Shown here piece by piece: positions 2 to 41,068 of a stretch of 42,099 nt of DNA. Position numbers and translations under genes: made by a program. Within the stretch, counting starts at the first letter, position 1, and each line of letters opens with the position of its first letter. The stretch is from Caldifarciminota bacterium. Lineage in GTDB: Bacteria > Hydrothermota > Tepidihabitantia > SM23-42. Location: the NCBI GenBank assembly GCA_014859085.1, contig JACUUY010000007.1:1-42099 (forward strand), in the 5' to 3' direction. The notes beneath the pieces are model-generated. The model saw only the letters and a program-made list of their open reading frames with translations, was not told the DNA's origin and made no database searches.

Positions 2-2221
2 TCCAACTACTTCGTCCTGCTCAACCAACGGTTTGTCAGCGCGGCCAGATATGAGGAGAATCTTTCTGCGATCGAGCAGGGCCTGGCGTGTCTGGGGATC
101 CCGGAAGAGACGATAAGAGTGTTCCAGAAGCGCAGCAACATGATCATCGAACTGGGCCGCAAATTGACCGAATACGAAGGTTTTGAACTGCCGTTATTCA
201 TCGGGCACAAGAAACACGGCATGCCGGTCCCGCAGGCGCTCCTTGAGAAATGTCCAGCAGAAGTGATCGCGCTGATCGAGCAGGCGACGGCCCGAAAGCA
301 TATAAACGCCTACAGCAAGGAGTTGCGCCAGGTTTCATTCGCGGTCGACGTATTTCTTGCCGTGCACAAGAATGTCATTGGCGCCCGGGTCGAGACGTTA
401 TTGCCGGATCTGCTCTCGGACGTAGAGCGGCTCGGGTTCACCAGCATCCGCGACGCGGTCGGGAAGATCCCCAGGATCTATCTTGACTACCTGTCCCCGG
501 CTTCGCTGGCTAAGGTGCTCAGGAAGATCGCCACGATGCTGCGTGCTGTGAGAGGCAAGCTGACCGAGGAACTAACCAGCATCAATCTCTATTCGACCAG
601 GATCAAGGAACAGCTCGAGGGGCTCTATCTCGAGACGAGTCAGGGGCTGCGTGAAATCATCGAGCAGGACGTCACGCAGGGCGCCGAGACAAGCGCCATC
701 ACGGAGAAAGTATCCAATCTGTTCTCGAGATTGGACCGCATGTTCGTGGGTAACATATACCATCTCAAGGATTATCAGCGAAGGAAGGACGAAATACTCG
801 GCAGCCTGAAAGAAGAGGAGGATCTCAGGCATCGCGCGGAAAACCAGCCGCCGGACACGGCAAAACCGATAAGCGAAATTTTCGATGAATACATGTACAT
901 GTACAAGTTCGGCCCGCTGACCAGAGAAGAAAGAAGGATCCTGGTCAGATCCCTGACCTCGGAGCTGGAAGAGATGTACCGCAAGAAGAGCCGGTCCATC
1001 GAGATGCTGAAGAAATTCGAGAAACGCGGCCTGATGTCGTTCGACCTTGATTTTGATGGACTCGTTGATACCTACAATTCGTTCATCAAGCGAACGATCG
1101 TGCCCGGCTACATCGGCCAGTGTTTTTTCAATCTGGTCACCTGCTTGCCGCCGCTGGAAAACGAGGCGCCGAGGTCGAAGGTCGATATCGCCAACCTGAA
1201 GACCGTTTTCCTGACCGGGAACAACATCTTGGAGTTGAAACCGAAGAAGGCTCCATACCCGCCCGAGATCGCCGGCTATGGTGACCGCTACCGCAAGTGT
1301 GTCACGATACTGGTCTACGATATCAGAGGCTCATCCTACATGGGCATCAAGTTGAACGATGCGGTCAAGGAGCACCGGATCAAGTGCAAGTTCGCGAAGG
1401 AGATGGCGCAGGTCGTGAAGAAGTATGATGGATTTCTGCTCAAAGACACCGGCGACGGCGGGCTCGTTTGGTTCTCCGAAAACTCGGGGTCGCTGTACAA
1501 CTACTTGTATACCGAGTCGGTCACGGGGAAGGGAACGAAGCTGCGGTATTCGATATGCTCGGGCGGCGAGTGCGACATCATACCCGCGGTCGACGCGGCC
1601 AAGCGCGCGGTGTTGTGCGCGCGGGACATCGTGCAGCGGGCCGAGGAATTCATCCGGGCGAATTTCGTGCATTATCGCGAGTGGTTTGCCGATGTTGCCG
1701 AGCGCACGCTTGAGCTGGACGGCATAACGTATTCGCTGCTGCCGCCTGAGTTCAAGAGCCTCTTCCGCATCGGTGTGGGCATTGCCTCGGGCGTGCCGGA
1801 CCGGGATGTTATCTTCGCGCCCAACTCCTACGGCGATCCGGACTTGGTGGGCCCGGTGCTGGCCGACGCGAATCTCTACTCGCGGGAGAGGCAGCCCGGC
1901 CGGTCGGTCATCATCTGCGACCTGCCGACCCTGGCGAACCTCGTTCTCAATGCCGAGGGTTTCGATTATCCGCTCGATGAAAAAAACTTTGACAAGTATT
2001 GTGAGATGCTCGCCCAGATGCGCGGCAAGACGCACGGTTACAACTTCGCCGACCAGAAGATATCGGTCATGCCCAAAGGCATGCATCTGCTTGGTGAACT
2101 GAACAAGAACCGGGCCGTGGTGGATGCCCTTATCGACGACATTGTCATTGACGAGCACCTGAATATCTACGACCGCGATAATAAGCGGATCAAGATGCTG
2201 TACGAAGTCCTGACCCTTTAA
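2..2221 (+). CDS. Class III adenylate/guanylate cyclase-like protein, 5' truncated by window edge
   Basis: Frame stays open from nt 2 through the ORF-track start at 119. C-terminal half has CVTILVYDIRGSS and LLKDTGDGGLVWF (two metal Asp positions) and DANLYSRE (N-x3-R). Confidence 0.75.
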   Translation, partial: SNYFVLLNQRFVSAARYEENLSAIEQGLACLGIPEETIRVFQKRSNMIIELGRKLTEYEGFELPLFIGHKKHGMPVPQALLEKCPAEVIALIEQATARKHINAYSKELRQVSFAVDVFLAVHKNVIGARVETLLPDLLSDVERLGFTSIRDAVGKIPRIYLDYLSPASLAKVLRKIATMLRAVRGKLTEELTSINLYSTRIKEQLEGLYLETSQGLREIIEQDVTQGAETSAITEKVSNLFSRLDRMFVGNIYHLKDYQRRKDEILGSLKEEEDLRHRAENQPPDTAKPISEIFDEYMYMYKFGPLTREERRILVRSLTSELEEMYRKKSRSIEMLKKFEKRGLMSFDLDFDGLVDTYNSFIKRTIVPGYIGQCFFNLVTCLPPLENEAPRSKVDIANLKTVFLTGNNILELKPKKAPYPPEIAGYGDRYRKCVTILVYDIRGSSYMGIKLNDAVKEHRIKCKFAKEMAQVVKKYDGFLLKDTGDGGLVWFSENSGSLYNYLYTESVTGKGTKLRYSICSGGECDIIPAVDAAKRAVLCARDIVQRAEEFIRANFVHYREWFADVAERTLELDGITYSLLPPEFKSLFRIGVGIASGVPDRDVIFAPNSYGDPDLVGPVLADANLYSRERQPGRSVIICDLPTLANLVLNAEGFDYPLDEKNFDKYCEMLAQMRGKTHGYNFADQKISVMPKGMHLLGELNKNRAVVDALIDDIVIDEHLNIYDRDNKRIKMLYEVLTL

Positions 2222-3612
2222 TGCTGGCAATAGTATTCGATCCTGACCACCTCAGATTGACGACGATCTCAAGGAACCTCCGTGAACTTGGAATGGACAA
2301 CTTGAGCGCGGTCAGGGTCAGCGACCTGCGCCGGACCGTCCGGGGGAAAGAATTCGATATTCTCTTCCTGGATGTTGCGGCATCGGCACTACTGGAGCAG
2401 TTCGGTAAGCAGCATCAGGATGTGCCGGTCATCCTGATGGCCGAGCGGAACGCGGTCATCAACTACGAAAAAGCGATCTACGCGGGCGTCACCGGGCTTT
2501 TGCTTCGTCCGTACCGCAGTGATATTCTCAAGAAGATCGTAGATAAGGCAATTCGACAGAGGAAGGAGATCATCAACGGCCGAGCGACCGTCCTGTCGCT
2601 GAAGCAGAAGGTGCAGTTGCTGCAGACCCTTAACGAAGTGGTGCAGGCGATAAACTCCTCTCTTTTGCCAAAGGAGATCTTCAACACGATCCTGACCAAG
2701 GCCGCGGATTTGATCAAGGCCGAGGGGTGGTCGGTCTTGCTGCTTACTGAGAGCGGCGACGAACTGGTCTTCGAGGCGGCATCGGGCAAGGTGGGCAAGA
2801 AGATCCTGGGCATGAGGTTGAAGGTCGGGCAGGGCGTTGCGGGATGGGTGGCGCGCTACGGCAAGTCATTGATCATCCCCGACGTGTCGAAGGATCCAAG
2901 GTTCTATTCGGGCGTGGACCAGAAGACGAAATTCACAACAAAGTCAGTCCTCTGCGTGCCGATGAAGAGCCGTGACCGCATCATCGGCGTGGTCGAAGTC
3001 GTCAACAAGATCGGCGGCGAAACCTTTACGCAGGACGAGTTCGAGATCTTTGAGAATGTCGTGGCGCACCTGACGATCGCGCTGGAAAAAGCCCAGATGT
3101 ACCGGAGGATGGAAGAGGCGAGCCAGCTGGATGATCTCACACAACTTTATAATATACGCCACTGCAATCAATTCCTCGACAATTTTCTGATCGAGCGCCG
3201 AGACACGAAGGGCGTGATTTCCCTGATCTTCCTCGACATTGATTTCTTCAAGCTGGTCAACGACAATTTCGGCCACCTGGTCGGCAGCGAAACGCTGAAA
3301 TTAGTCGGCGAGCGAATGTCCCGCGTGGTCCGCAGGAACGATCTGATCGTGCGTTACGGCGGTGACGAGTATATCGTGCTGCTGCCGAATACGGACAAGA
3401 AAACGGCGGTGACGATCGCCGAACGGATAAGAATAGCGATAAGCCGGACGCCTTTCTATGCGTTCGGCAACAAGAAATTCAGCATCACCGCGACCTCGGG
3501 CGTGGCGACGTATCCCGATGATGCGAAGAACCGGGACAACCTGATCGGCAAGGCGGACAAGGCGATGTATGAAGGTAAGATGTCCGGCCGCAACAAAGTA
3601 GTACTGGCCTGA
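2221..3612 (+). CDS. Diguanylate cyclase: degenerate receiver + GAF + GGDEF
   Basis: RYGGDEYIVLLP with upstream RRND (RxxD I-site spacing); GAF-like central region; receiver-like N-terminus with LLLRPYR replacing the usual K-P. Start overlaps the previous stop (TAATG). Confidence 0.9.
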   Translation: MLAIVFDPDHLRLTTISRNLRELGMDNLSAVRVSDLRRTVRGKEFDILFLDVAASALLEQFGKQHQDVPVILMAERNAVINYEKAIYAGVTGLLLRPYRSDILKKIVDKAIRQRKEIINGRATVLSLKQKVQLLQTLNEVVQAINSSLLPKEIFNTILTKAADLIKAEGWSVLLLTESGDELVFEAASGKVGKKILGMRLKVGQGVAGWVARYGKSLIIPDVSKDPRFYSGVDQKTKFTTKSVLCVPMKSRDRIIGVVEVVNKIGGETFTQDEFEIFENVVAHLTIALEKAQMYRRMEEASQLDDLTQLYNIRHCNQFLDNFLIERRDTKGVISLIFLDIDFFKLVNDNFGHLVGSETLKLVGERMSRVVRRNDLIVRYGGDEYIVLLPNTDKKTAVTIAERIRIAISRTPFYAFGNKKFSITATSGVATYPDDAKNRDNLIGKADKAMYEGKMSGRNKVVLA

Positions 3613-34772: not shown

Positions 34773-35215
34773 TGGCGGCGACCGACTACACGATCCTGCT
34801 CGTTGAAGACGACCACAACGACGTGCTGCTCATCAAGCGCGCCTTTCAGAAGGTGAACATCGCGAACCCGATAATCGTCCTGGGCGACGGCGAACAGGCG
34901 ATCTCTTATCTCGCCGGCCGCGAGCCGTACGCGAACCGCACCCTGCCGATACTCGTTCTGCTCGACCTTAAACTGCCCCGCAAGTCGGGCCACGAGGTGC
35001 TCGAGTGGCTCCGCCAGCAGCGGCGGCTCAAGCGCCTGCCCGTGGTTGTCTTGACCGCGTCGAGCGAATCTTCGGACATAAATCGCGCCTATGATCTGGG
35101 TGCCAATTCCTACCTTGTCAAACCCGTGACCTTCGACGCGCTGGTCGAAATGGTGAAGACGCTCAACATGTACTGGCTGATAATGAACCGAAGCGCGGAT
35201 GTGAGCAATGAATAA
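34772..35215 (+). CDS. Response regulator, Rcp1-like single receiver
   Basis: TILLVEDDHNDVLLIKRAFQKV...LVLLDLKLPRKSGHEVLEWLR...SYLVKPV; start overlaps the kinase stop by 1 nt. Confidence 0.9.
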   Translation: MAATDYTILLVEDDHNDVLLIKRAFQKVNIANPIIVLGDGEQAISYLAGREPYANRTLPILVLLDLKLPRKSGHEVLEWLRQQRRLKRLPVVVLTASSESSDINRAYDLGANSYLVKPVTFDALVEMVKTLNMYWLIMNRSADVSNE

Positions 35216-37367
35216 GGATGATAAGAGAATTGACGGCATGGGCAATATTCTTAAAACAATAATTGTCATCGATGACAATCCTGATGACCGGGCGCTTACG
35301 GTCCGCGCGCTGGCGCTCGATTTTCCCGGCGTACGCATCAAACAGATCCGGACTATCGATGATTTCGAAGCAGCATTGAAGCAAGGTGATTTTGACCTGG
35401 TCATTACCGATTACAAGGTGCACTGGATCGACGGCATCCAGGTGCTGCGCCGGGTGAAGGAGGTCCATCCAGAATGCCCGGTGATCATGTTCACCGGGAC
35501 CGGCAACGAGGAGGTCGCGGTCGACGCGATGAAGGCCGGGCTCGATGATTACGTGATCAAGTCACCCAGGCACTTCGTGCGTTTGCCGGCGGCCGTGCAT
35601 TCGGTCGTGGACCGGCGGATGCAGCGTAAGGCAAAGGAGAAGGCCGAAGCGCGCTACCGGACCCTCTTCGAGGATGTGCCGGTCGGTCTATACAGCGCGC
35701 TGCCCGACGGCAAGATACTCGAAGCCAATCCCGTGATGGTCCAGATGTTCGGGTATCCGGACCGTGAATCCATGACCCGGATGAATCTCGCGGACCTGCA
35801 TTTCAGCGCCGAAGACCGCGCCCGTTGGCTCAATGTCATCCAGCAGGACGGTTTCGTGCGCAACTTCGAGTCCCTCATGCGCCGGCGCGACGGCTCTGTC
35901 TTCTGGGTCAGCGAGAACGCGCGCGCGGTGGTCGATCCGGGCGGCAAGACGAACTACTTTCAGGGCAGCATGGAAGACATCTCCGAACGGAAATACGCGG
36001 ACGAAGCGCTGCGCGAGAGCAAGGAGCGGTACCGGCTGCTGTATGAATACGCGGGTAATGCGATCTTCACTTATGATCTAAATTTCAAACTGATCGACGT
36101 GAACAAGATAGCCTGTGATTTCACGGGCAAGCGCCGGGAAGATCTGATCGGCAGGAATTTCCTCGAACTCGACATTATCTTCAAGGAAGACATCGCGGCG
36201 GTCAAGAAGGACAGCGAGCAGCTCTGTGCCGGCGCCAAGAATCAGGTCGTGGTGAGCAAGGTGCGCTTCAAGCACGCCGACGGCCGGTATTCGATCATGG
36301 AAGTGAATGGAACCGCCATTTACAAAGAGGGCAAGATCGTGGCGATAACCAATGTCTGCCGCGACATCACCGAACGCGAGCGCCTGCTCATCGCGCTCGA
36401 GGAGAGCGAGGAGAAATACCGGACCCTTGTCGAGCATTCAAGCGACGGCATTTTCATCTACGCCAACAGCAATTTCACTTTCGTGAATGACCAGTTGTGC
36501 AAGATAACCGATTACACGAAGGAAGAACTGTACAACACGGACCCGTGGAAGATCATTTATCCTAACGACCGTGACAAGGTGAAGGACATGGACCTGCGCC
36601 GGAAAATGGGCGAGGCAGTGCCCAGGGCCTTTGATGTGCGCATCGTGACCAAGCATGGTGACGTCAGGTATTGCGAGTTCGCGGTGACGCGGATCGTGTA
36701 CCAGGGCGAGGAGGCGAATCTCGTGTCGGTACGCAACATTACGGACCGGAAACAGATGGAGGATGAGCTGCAGCTGAGTCTGGTCAAGCTGGAGAAGACG
36801 ATCCAGAACACCCTTCAGGCGATGGCAAAGATCCAGGAAGCGCGGGACCCGTACACGACCGGCCACCAGCTGCGCGTCGCCGCACTCGCCCAGGAGATCG
36901 CCAAGGAGATGTACCTGCCTGAAGAGTGGGTGCGGGGCATCCAGGTCGCGGCGTTGATCCATGACATCGGTAAGATCTACGTGCCGGCAGAGATCCTGAG
37001 CCGGCCGAGTAAGCTGACCCTGTCTGAATTCGCGCTCGTCAAGACGCACCCGAGCGTGGGTTACGATATCTTAAAGACGATAGAATTCCCCTGGCCTATT
37101 GCCGACGTCGTGCTCCAGCATCACGAGCGTCTCGATGGTTCGGGATATCCGCGCGGCTTGAAGGCGGGCAATATCATGCTCGAGTCGCAGATCCTTGCCG
37201 TTGCCGACGTCGTGGAAGCAATGTCGTCGCACCGGCCATACCGACCGGCGCACAGCCTCGACGTGACCCTGGACGAGATATCCAAGAACAAGGGCCGGCT
37301 TTACGAGGCGGACGTGGTCGATTCCTGCCTGTGGCTCATCACGGGCAAAGGATTCAAGTTCAACTAA
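35208..37367 (+). CDS. Receiver + PAS (x3) + HD-GYP phosphodiesterase
   Basis: IIVIDDNPDDRALTVRAL receiver; repeated PAS; LIHDIGKIYVP, HHERLDGSGYPRGL. Confidence 0.93.
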   Translation: MNKDDKRIDGMGNILKTIIVIDDNPDDRALTVRALALDFPGVRIKQIRTIDDFEAALKQGDFDLVITDYKVHWIDGIQVLRRVKEVHPECPVIMFTGTGNEEVAVDAMKAGLDDYVIKSPRHFVRLPAAVHSVVDRRMQRKAKEKAEARYRTLFEDVPVGLYSALPDGKILEANPVMVQMFGYPDRESMTRMNLADLHFSAEDRARWLNVIQQDGFVRNFESLMRRRDGSVFWVSENARAVVDPGGKTNYFQGSMEDISERKYADEALRESKERYRLLYEYAGNAIFTYDLNFKLIDVNKIACDFTGKRREDLIGRNFLELDIIFKEDIAAVKKDSEQLCAGAKNQVVVSKVRFKHADGRYSIMEVNGTAIYKEGKIVAITNVCRDITERERLLIALEESEEKYRTLVEHSSDGIFIYANSNFTFVNDQLCKITDYTKEELYNTDPWKIIYPNDRDKVKDMDLRRKMGEAVPRAFDVRIVTKHGDVRYCEFAVTRIVYQGEEANLVSVRNITDRKQMEDELQLSLVKLEKTIQNTLQAMAKIQEARDPYTTGHQLRVAALAQEIAKEMYLPEEWVRGIQVAALIHDIGKIYVPAEILSRPSKLTLSEFALVKTHPSVGYDILKTIEFPWPIADVVLQHHERLDGSGYPRGLKAGNIMLESQILAVADVVEAMSSHRPYRPAHSLDVTLDEISKNKGRLYEADVVDSCLWLITGKGFKFN

Positions 37368-37461: not shown

Positions 37462-38490
37462 TTAGCACAAAATGTTGCGTTCCTCCAGGTACTCGGGTGA
37501 CAGCACGCCTTCCGATATCAGTTGCCGCTTGGATTGTTCGAGACTTTGCATGCCAAACTGACGCCCGGTTTGAATCACCGAGTCAATCTGGAATGTTTTC
37601 TCTTCTCTGATCAGATTGCGGATGGCTTGGTTCGCGATCATGAGTTCGAAAGCCGCGATGCGGCCAGTGTTGTCTTTGCGCGGATACAACCTTTGCGCGA
37701 CGACGCCGCGCAGCGATTCCGCGACCTGGAGTCTTATCTGATGTTTCTGATCGCTGGGGAAAATATCGATGATTCTGGTGATGGTTTTTGGCGCGCTCGA
37801 GGTATGGAGCGTACCGAAGACCAGATGACCGGTCTCCGCTGCAGTCAGCGCCAGCGATATTGTTTCCAAGTCGCGCATTTCGCCCACAAGGATGTAATCC
37901 GGGTCTTCTCTCAGCGCACTTCTCAGGGCGTTGGCGAATGACTGGGTGTTGGTTCCAATCTGTCTCTGGTTCACGACACACTTGTTCGATTTGTGGATGA
38001 ATTCTATTGGATCTTCGATTGTTATGATGTGCCCACTCTTATTCTCATTCACGTAGTTGATCATGGATGCCAGGGAGGTGGACTTGCCGCTGCCCGTGGG
38101 TCCGGTCACGAGGATGAGTCCGTTCTCAAGATCGATCATTTCCCTGAGTGTCTTGGGCAGGTGCAATTCCTCCATGGTCGGTATCCTCTCCGGGATTATT
38201 CTGAATACGGCGCCCAACCCCTGGCGTTGCTGGAACACGTTGGCCCTGAATCTCCCCTCAGGGTTTTCAATCGAGAAATCAATTTCATTTTCTCTTGTCA
38301 GCTGGTCGATCTGTGCATCGTTCAGCAGTTGATTTATTAGATTTTCGGCGACATCCTGCGTAATGCACTTGCCATCCACCTTACGCATTGCACCGTGGAC
38401 CCTCACCATGATCGGTGAACCGGCACTGATATGCAGGTCGCTCGCACTTGCCGCTACGGCATATTTCAGTAGTTGCTGCGTTTCACTCAT
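37462..38490 (-). CDS. pilT: Type IV pilus twitching ATPase PilT
   Basis: LLKYAVAASASDLHISAGSPIMVRVHG, LVTGPTGSGKSTSLASMINYVN, ALREDPDYILVGEMRDLETISLALTAAETGHLVFGTLHTSSA. Start revised from 38595. Confidence 0.93.
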   Translation of the reverse strand: MSETQQLLKYAVAASASDLHISAGSPIMVRVHGAMRKVDGKCITQDVAENLINQLLNDAQIDQLTRENEIDFSIENPEGRFRANVFQQRQGLGAVFRIIPERIPTMEELHLPKTLREMIDLENGLILVTGPTGSGKSTSLASMINYVNENKSGHIITIEDPIEFIHKSNKCVVNQRQIGTNTQSFANALRSALREDPDYILVGEMRDLETISLALTAAETGHLVFGTLHTSSAPKTITRIIDIFPSDQKHQIRLQVAESLRGVVAQRLYPRKDNTGRIAAFELMIANQAIRNLIREEKTFQIDSVIQTGRQFGMQSLEQSKRQLISEGVLSPEYLEERNILC

Positions 38491-38980
38491 GATGTCCCTC
38501 GCTCGTTTCTTTGATTCTGATTTCAATATTCGCGGTAACCGTTTTTCTGACGACATTCCCCGATTTGTCGCTGAATTCCATAATGGCCTGATCATCGAGC
38601 ACGCTCAGAATTGTGCTATCTGTGTCCTTTCGCGCGAGCATGGGTTCGATCCTTTGTGCCGCAAAGAACTTCTCCAAAAGTTGAGTGATTACGCCGACCT
38701 CCGCCCCTGAGACGACTATTTCCTTGGCCGTATATGCTTTCAACTTCTGTATTGCACCGGTATCGGTTGGATCGCCCAGGGCAAAGTATATCCGGTCGTC
38801 CGCTTGGTAAAGGGGTAGGAGGTTGTTTTCACGCAGTAATTTTTCGGGAAACCTATTGACCAGCGCGTTGTCAAGCATGTCAGGGGTCAGTTCGACGAAC
38901 GGCATGTTGGCCTGTTCGCTTAGAAACCATATGAGCTCTTTTGCCGATATGTAACCAAGTTCGATCAGAATTTCACCCAA
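38483..38980 (-). CDS. MshEN (GspE N-terminal) domain protein; ORF-track form starting downstream of an in-frame TAG
   Basis: RLGEILIELGYISAKELIWFLSEQANMPFVEL matches the MshEN RLGxxL...G.I....L...L..Q motif. Confidence 0.75.
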   Translation of the reverse strand: MGEILIELGYISAKELIWFLSEQANMPFVELTPDMLDNALVNRFPEKLLRENNLLPLYQADDRIYFALGDPTDTGAIQKLKAYTAKEIVVSGAEVGVITQLLEKFFAAQRIEPMLARKDTDSTILSVLDDQAIMEFSDKSGNVVRKTVTANIEIRIKETSEGHHE

Positions 38981-38998
38981 TCGCCTATTTTCTTTCTT

Positions 38999-39076
38999 CT
39001 ATCTTTCGAGAGCCTCATCCAATCGGGCCTGGTCGATGATCCCGCTTCTGACAAGCATTTCGCCGATAAGGGACAT
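38999..39076 (-). other. In-frame N-terminal segment of MshEN gene (MSLIGEMLVRSGIIDQARLDEALER) ending in TAG
   Basis: Translated codon by codon. Same frame as 38483-38980, ATG 1 nt after the response-regulator stop, first half of the MshEN repeat. Confidence 0.8.
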
Positions 39077-39077
39077 A

Positions 39078-39491
39078 CTACCTCCCGATGAGTTCGGTGA
39101 TTCTGGATTTGAGCGACTCGATATCGATCGGCTTGGTGATGAAGGCCGCGATGTCCGAAGTTTTGACGACGATGTCGTCTTCCATCAACGGGTAGGCGGA
39201 GCAGATGATGATGGGCACGTTGCTGTCGCGTTCGCGGATGCGCTCGATGGCTTCAAGACCGTGGACCTGCGGCATTTTTATGTCAATGATGATCAGATCG
39301 ATGTGTTCCTTCGTCGCCAGCCGCAACGCGTCACGGCCGTTCGCCGCTTCGACGATGTCGTAGCTGTCCTGAAGCGCCTCGGCCAACAAGAGCCGTATCG
39401 GTTCCTCATCGTCACAAATCAATATTCTTTTCTTGGTTAAACCGGGTTCAAGCACCGGAGCATCATCTCCGGCTGGGTTGATTGGCGTCAT
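39078..39491 (-). CDS. Response regulator, single receiver
   Basis: RILICDDEEPIRLLLAEAL...LIIIDIKMPQVHGLEAIERI...AFITKPIDI. Confidence 0.92.
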   Translation of the reverse strand: MTPINPAGDDAPVLEPGLTKKRILICDDEEPIRLLLAEALQDSYDIVEAANGRDALRLATKEHIDLIIIDIKMPQVHGLEAIERIRERDSNVPIIICSAYPLMEDDIVVKTSDIAAFITKPIDIESLKSRITELIGR

Positions 39492-41068
39492 TTGTCCTCC
39501 TGTGTTGGCAGATACACGCGGCAGGTTGTCCCCTTGCCTTCCTCGCTCTTGATCTCGATCTTTCCCTGGTAATCGTCGACGATCTTCTTGACGATGGCGA
39601 GGCCGAGACCCGTGCCGCGGCTCTTGGTCGTGAAGAACGGCGTGATCAGGTTCTGCATGTTCTCGGCGGATATCCCCCGGCCGTTATCCACGATCTCGGT
39701 GACGATCCAATTTTTTGTCTTGCTGAACCTTACCACGATCTTGGGGTCTTTGTCCATGGCTTCGACGCTGTTGGTGATGATGTTCGTAAAAAGGCTCTTC
39801 AAAGACTCTTCCTCGCCCCTGACCACGGCGCCGGCCGTGCCGTCGATGAAGACGCGGACATTCGCGATGTCCTCGGTGATCTCGGTCATGAGCCGGTGCA
39901 GGTCGATTTCGACCGCGCCCGAGCGGGTTCTGGTGCGCGCGAACGTGAGGATGTCTTCAATTATGTGATTTATCCGGCGGGTACCGCGGTGGATCTCTTT
40001 GCTGAAGGCTTCGATTTTCTCAGGATCGCGCGTGTAGCTCAGGAGTTGAGAGAAGCCGTCGATTGCGGTCAGCGGATTGCGGATCTCGTGGGCGACCCAG
40101 GTTGCCATCTTGCCGAGGTATGACAGCCGTTCTGCGTGCTGGAGTTTTCTTTCCAGTTCCTTGACTTCGGTAAGATCACGCAGGATCCCGACACAGCCGG
40201 ATAATTCAGTATTCGGCGAGTGCATCGGCGACAGGGAAAGGCCGATCGGAACGAGTTCATTATCTGCATTCCGGATCGAGATCTGCAACCGCTCCATTGA
40301 TCTGTTAGTGTTCATTGCCTGTGCCATCTTCTGCCACAGCATGTCGAGGCTCTGGGTGCTTTTGATATTTCTGCCCGTGAGGTCTCTTTGATCGACGCCC
40401 AGGACACGTGCGGCCTCGGGGTTGATCGTCGTGATCGTGCCGTCGTCCTTGACGACGATCACGCCGCTCGCGACGCAGTTGATCACCATCTCGCTGTAGC
40501 GCCTCAGTTCGGTTTCCTCGGCCGTGATCCGGGCGACCTCGTCTTCGAGTTTGCGCGCTGATGTCTCCAACTTCCTCCTTTCCATGATTTCGCGCCTCGT
40601 CGCCGTTGCCCAGTAGCTGCTGATGAGCGATACGATGAAGAGAAACGGTACTTTGATCAGGATCGCCGAGTCCATGAGCGAAACGCCGGGATTGAAACGG
40701 TAGACGAGCCAGGTGTACACGATGCTGGCAACGATTGCGATAGGTATGCTGCCGCGGATATCCTGGGCGAACGAAGCGATGAAGATTATGAGAAAGAATA
40801 TCAGATAGAAATCGGTCTGTATCCCCTGCGACAGATATATCGCCAGAGATACGGCAACGAGGTCGGTCAGAAAGATGGCAAAAGAGACGGCCGGCACCGC
40901 AAATTTCGTTTCCGGTATTAAATATAGTGCGAGGTTTGAAATGAAATATGCCAGGGCCACCGCATATCCGGGCGAGGCAATGTTCAGGTCGCGTTCCGAG
41001 TATGTCATGACGAGTATCGTGGACAGGATCAGAACGAAACGCAGCAGCAGTAGAGTTCGTTTCTGCAA
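39488..41068 (-). CDS. Membrane PAS sensor histidine kinase
   Basis: N-terminal TM helices; PAS; WVAHEIRNPLTAIDGFSQLL; VDNGRGISAENMQNLITPFFTTKSRGTGLGLAIVKKIV. Confidence 0.93.
   Translation of the reverse strand: MQKRTLLLLRFVLILSTILVMTYSERDLNIASPGYAVALAYFISNLALYLIPETKFAVPAVSFAIFLTDLVAVSLAIYLSQGIQTDFYLIFFLIIFIASFAQDIRGSIPIAIVASIVYTWLVYRFNPGVSLMDSAILIKVPFLFIVSLISSYWATATRREIMERRKLETSARKLEDEVARITAEETELRRYSEMVINCVASGVIVVKDDGTITTINPEAARVLGVDQRDLTGRNIKSTQSLDMLWQKMAQAMNTNRSMERLQISIRNADNELVPIGLSLSPMHSPNTELSGCVGILRDLTEVKELERKLQHAERLSYLGKMATWVAHEIRNPLTAIDGFSQLLSYTRDPEKIEAFSKEIHRGTRRINHIIEDILTFARTRTRSGAVEIDLHRLMTEITEDIANVRVFIDGTAGAVVRGEEESLKSLFTNIITNSVEAMDKDPKIVVRFSKTKNWIVTEIVDNGRGISAENMQNLITPFFTTKSRGTGLGLAIVKKIVDDYQGKIEIKSEEGKGTTCRVYLPTQEDK

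Follow-up and report, generated by a model that had tools for sequence, protein, structure and literature searches.

The MshEN domain has been described as a pair of 24-residue motifs, RLGxx(LVI)(LVI)xxG(LVI)(LVI)xxxxLxxxLxxQ, with a spacer of 5 residues between them (PMC5013675). We compared the N-terminal domain of V. cholerae MshE (PF05157, 5htl) with a gene on the minus strand of the window, the window being the whole stretch of 42,099 nucleotides (42 kb) analysed here. The two have in common a 24+5+24 arrangement of motifs followed by a C-terminal domain, and the family profile matches PDB chains of MshE (5htl, E 3e-20) and also of PilB and PilF. They differ in that the window protein is not the N-terminus of an ATPase; judged from its sequence, the predicted product of about 197 codons is a standalone MshEN protein. 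Its spacing follows the published layout exactly, with motif I at residues 3-26, the spacer at 27-31 and motif II at 32-55. Motif II differs from MshE in having Tyr42 at one hydrophobic position and otherwise fits the consensus; in motif I, Arg is replaced by Leu3 and Leu by Ile4, and a TAG codon stands in place of the final Gln. At the first position of RLG most orthologues have Arg, and in MshE the motif I Arg contacts c-di-GMP. An earlier note on this DNA had placed the TAG at the last Gln of the first of two tandem RLG motifs. The spacing and the position of the stop, which is equivalent to Gln32 of V. cholerae MshE (PMC5013675), bear this out, but motif I does not have the RLG form, as Leu3 replaces its first Arg.

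The interrupting TAG (39001-38999, minus strand) is codon 26 of the 197-codon MshEN gene and is in frame. Codons 1-25 (39002-39076), which encode motif I minus its final residue, begin with an ATG at 39076 that is preceded by a strong Shine-Dalgarno sequence, GGGAGG, and lies one base after the TAG stop (39080-39078) of the response regulator gene. Past the interrupting TAG the frame remains open for 171 codons, to a TGA at 38485-38483. This second part (38483-38998) comprises the spacer, motif II, the C-terminal domain and a variable tail, and is recognized by the profile comparison with 5htl and by Pfam PF05157, which matches residues 57-142 only, downstream of the TAG (55 bits against a cut-off of 23.1, E 8e-15). 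The coordinates reported earlier for the ATG and the TAG were reproduced. So was the claim that the frame and the motif carry on to either side of the stop: the 25 codons before it and most of the 171 after it align almost without gaps to 13 full-length orthologues, a match beyond what chance would give. The TAG is the single lesion detected in a gene that is otherwise intact.

MshEN is the third gene of an operon conserved across genera of candidate division WOR-3, with the order HK-RR-MshEN-PilT (window 37462-41068, minus strand). The other three genes are intact. They encode a PAS histidine kinase with a weak PilS-like transmembrane match (39488-41068), a response regulator receiver protein (39078-39491) and a PilT-type ATPase of 342 amino acids (37462-38490), whose ATG overlaps the end of MshEN (ATGAGTGA) and has its own Shine-Dalgarno sequence. 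A convergent gene on the plus strand (35208-37367) encodes a protein with response-regulator, PAS and HD domains. Most of the sister genera in which the locus covers this neighbourhood show the same HK-RR-MshEN-PilT order; the exceptions are G025, in which the kinase and regulator are inverted, and G008, in which the kinase match is on another contig. Elsewhere in the window, one of the genome's nine GGDEF domains is encoded at 3124-3597, within gene 2221-3612; the presence of GGDEF diguanylate cyclase genes implies that c-di-GMP is probably made.

Homologues of the MshEN gene were sought first in 41 relatives, then in the taxonomic family and then in the phylum. The copies found, in the same taxonomic family and order, number 21, of which 13 are full-length orthologues (44-51% identity) and 8 are shorter. 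The matches from the named collection are candidate division WOR-3/Stahlbacteria genomes, and the relatives are metagenome-assembled; a contig scan with the single MshEN protein as query gave no match. Codon 26 is Gln in 21 of the 21 related copies, and none has a stop there. The alignment to homologues that the earlier note had called for shows the column to be invariant in 13/13 full-length orthologues, and the 8 shorter copies agree. Stops in the copies G022:C64 and G011:C3 were considered as candidates for a conserved stop and rejected, as they fall past query residues 144 and 136, respectively, the ends of the stop-free alignments, and not at codon 26. Contig G011:C3 also carries three shorter standalone MshEN copies (about 150 amino acids each) within about 14 kb (L035, 1625-15878). 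A premature stop where every related copy has Gln, in a gene that is intact in those relatives, is the mark of a pseudogene or nonsense allele.

The known systems in which TAG is recoded, of the pyrrolysine or suppressor type, resemble the window in having an in-frame TAG within a conserved frame. The window differs from them in several respects. RF1 is present in the genome (461.7 bits), and TAG serves as an ordinary stop for the response regulator directly upstream and for 5 of the 16 window genes listed. No PylS match exceeded its cut-off (the best, PylS_Nterm, reached 13 bits against 51), and no relative shares the stop. A suppressor tRNA, for which the earlier note had suggested a search, was not recovered: no CUA anticodon occurs among the 40 tRNAs over cut-off plus a tRNA-Sec call. 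This set is incomplete, Asn-GUU also being missing, so a suppressor tRNA could lie in an assembly gap. On the combined evidence of RF1, PylS, the tRNAs and the normal use of TAG, an alternative genetic code or pyrrolysine was rejected. We found no paper on the genetic code and stop codons of WOR-3. The tRNA-Sec call is that of ARAGORN for a tRNA-SeC (UCA) in the window's own genome (L091, G000:C233, 26-119), which raises the possibility that TGA, and not TAG, is recoded in this genome.

The RNA fold after the TAG has a z of -2.7. This value is not unusual, as 3 of 57 other windows of the operon reach it, and an RNA element after the stop was set aside accordingly. The fold bears on the earlier proposal that the stop gates a c-di-GMP sensor, with programmed readthrough or tRNA suppression inserting an amino acid and so regulating the amount of full-length MshEN. 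Besides the fold, the unbroken frame and conservation on both sides of the TAG and the diguanylate cyclase genes, with the c-di-GMP they probably supply, would agree with such a scheme. However, the stop occurs in no relative, RF1 is present while PylS over cut-off and a CUA tRNA were not found, the adjacent response regulator and several other window genes end in TAG, and comparable folds occur in the same operon. The idea of a gated sensor is weakened further because the motif I Arg, the c-di-GMP contact in MshE, is also lost in this copy. We regard it as very improbable. A variant restricted to this lineage, in which low, regulated readthrough makes full-length MshEN, and PilT via its overlapping start, dependent on the efficiency of termination, is extremely improbable.

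The sequence downstream of the TAG encodes the larger part of the protein, with the entire C-terminal MshEN domain recognized by Pfam. Translation might restart there, at a TTG (38978-38980) or at a later codon, to give a shortened product that lacks motif I but is still active, for example towards PilT. The TTG, named in the earlier note as a point of reinitiation, is 18 nt past the stop and near enough to reinitiate. It has no Shine-Dalgarno sequence, however: the calculated energy, -2.8 kcal/mol, is close to the random median (-2.6) and far from that of the true ATG at 39076 (-11.6). A start at this codon would fall within motif II after its Arg, so that the product would lack motif I altogether as well as the first residue of motif II. 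The comparison with relatives also argues against a downstream start, since all of them keep motif I. Restart at the TTG or beyond is thus a poor prospect, to which we give little credence.

In six genomes of the same genus (G001 and G003-G007) the kinase is kept at 66-73% identity, and the genes run HD2-HK-RR, followed directly by the convergent RR-PAS-HD gene; about 154-661 bp replaces MshEN-PilT. No close MshEN orthologue was found in these six genomes, tblastn detected no MshEN remnants in the gaps, and the best PilT matches are paralogues of only about 50% identity. In a tree of HK and RR the window genome groups with G005 inside the genus, with an ultrafast bootstrap of 94 for the branch separating the two from all others. 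As six genomes lack the pair and the window genome nests among them, MshEN-PilT is dispensable in the genus, and under vertical descent the nesting requires three or more separate losses of the pair. Alternatively, the pair may have been lost once and later regained at this position, from a donor outside the sampled genomes. Third-position G+C is 0.57 for MshEN and 0.64 for PilT, versus 0.70-0.81 in the other window genes measured; across the sister genera there is no consistent difference between MshEN and HK. The low values could fit repeated loss or loss and regain alike. MshEN and PilT are missing together from these six genomes, which suggests that they function together.

Of the options raised earlier, the evidence favours two, a recent nonsense mutation and an assembly error. 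Both are compatible with the rate at which the gene has diverged. The window MshEN is somewhat more diverged than the other orthologues, and so, equally, are its intact neighbours; the mean distance, divided by that of the other taxa, comes to about 1.1 for MshEN and for HK and 1.2 for RR and for PilT. At otherwise invariant columns it departs at 3 of 35, as does G015. Relaxed selection on MshEN was therefore not apparent, either as a further lesion or as acceleration relative to the intact neighbours, and an older pseudogene was rejected for want of relative-rate acceleration. Since MshEN has diverged no faster than the genes around it, the stop is either young or a one-base assembly error. 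The same lack of a second lesion or of acceleration is also expected if the true base differs or if the protein is still made. We label the gene a nonsense allele and not an old pseudogene, because signs of relaxed selection, which a very recent mutation would not require, were not seen.

Across the window, the TAG is the sole in-frame stop among the same-sense genes that align to the same-genus genomes G005 and G003; the remaining stops in this comparison are in antisense matches or are a gene's own end. The TAG is in this respect a singular event in the window. Gene order along the window agrees with that of the aligned genes in G005 and G003, and a mis-binned or chimeric contig was rejected for this reason. 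The genome is in 252 contigs and, like its relatives, metagenome-assembled, so that the stop might have arisen in assembly or in sequencing, or come from a minority strain, with the true or majority gene lacking it. The lack of other damage to the gene, its unaccelerated divergence and the fact that one substitution is the sole lesion seen would fit such an error. However, a random error in the consensus is a rare event and would here have had to strike a codon one step from a stop, no other damage is visible in the window, and a real mutation would be unsurprising in a gene that is dispensable in the genus. We consider an error or strain variant rather unlikely.

The probable explanation is a recent nonsense mutation, with loss of function, early in the loss of a dispensable gene pair. 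A CAG-to-TAG transition would be the simplest single-base route to it. Ribosomes would then terminate at codon 26 through RF1 and release a useless 25-residue peptide. PilT has a ribosome-binding site of its own and may still be produced, perhaps in smaller amounts, since the overlapping start suggests translational coupling with MshEN. The lineage of the window would thus stand at an early step of the same MshEN-PilT loss that the rest of the genus has undergone. The locus resembles an ordinary bacterial pseudogene or nonsense allele in having one early in-frame stop in an otherwise intact, dispensable gene that is absent from related lineages. It differs in that no further lesions have accumulated yet and that the inactivation is putative. 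The TAG thus most likely represents ordinary gene decay rather than a new coding trick.

The stop codon itself matters little, be it an ordinary nonsense mutation or an error of one base. A useful by-product of its analysis is the operon conserved in WOR-3, with a standalone MshEN protein encoded between the kinase and response regulator on one side and the PilT motor on the other.
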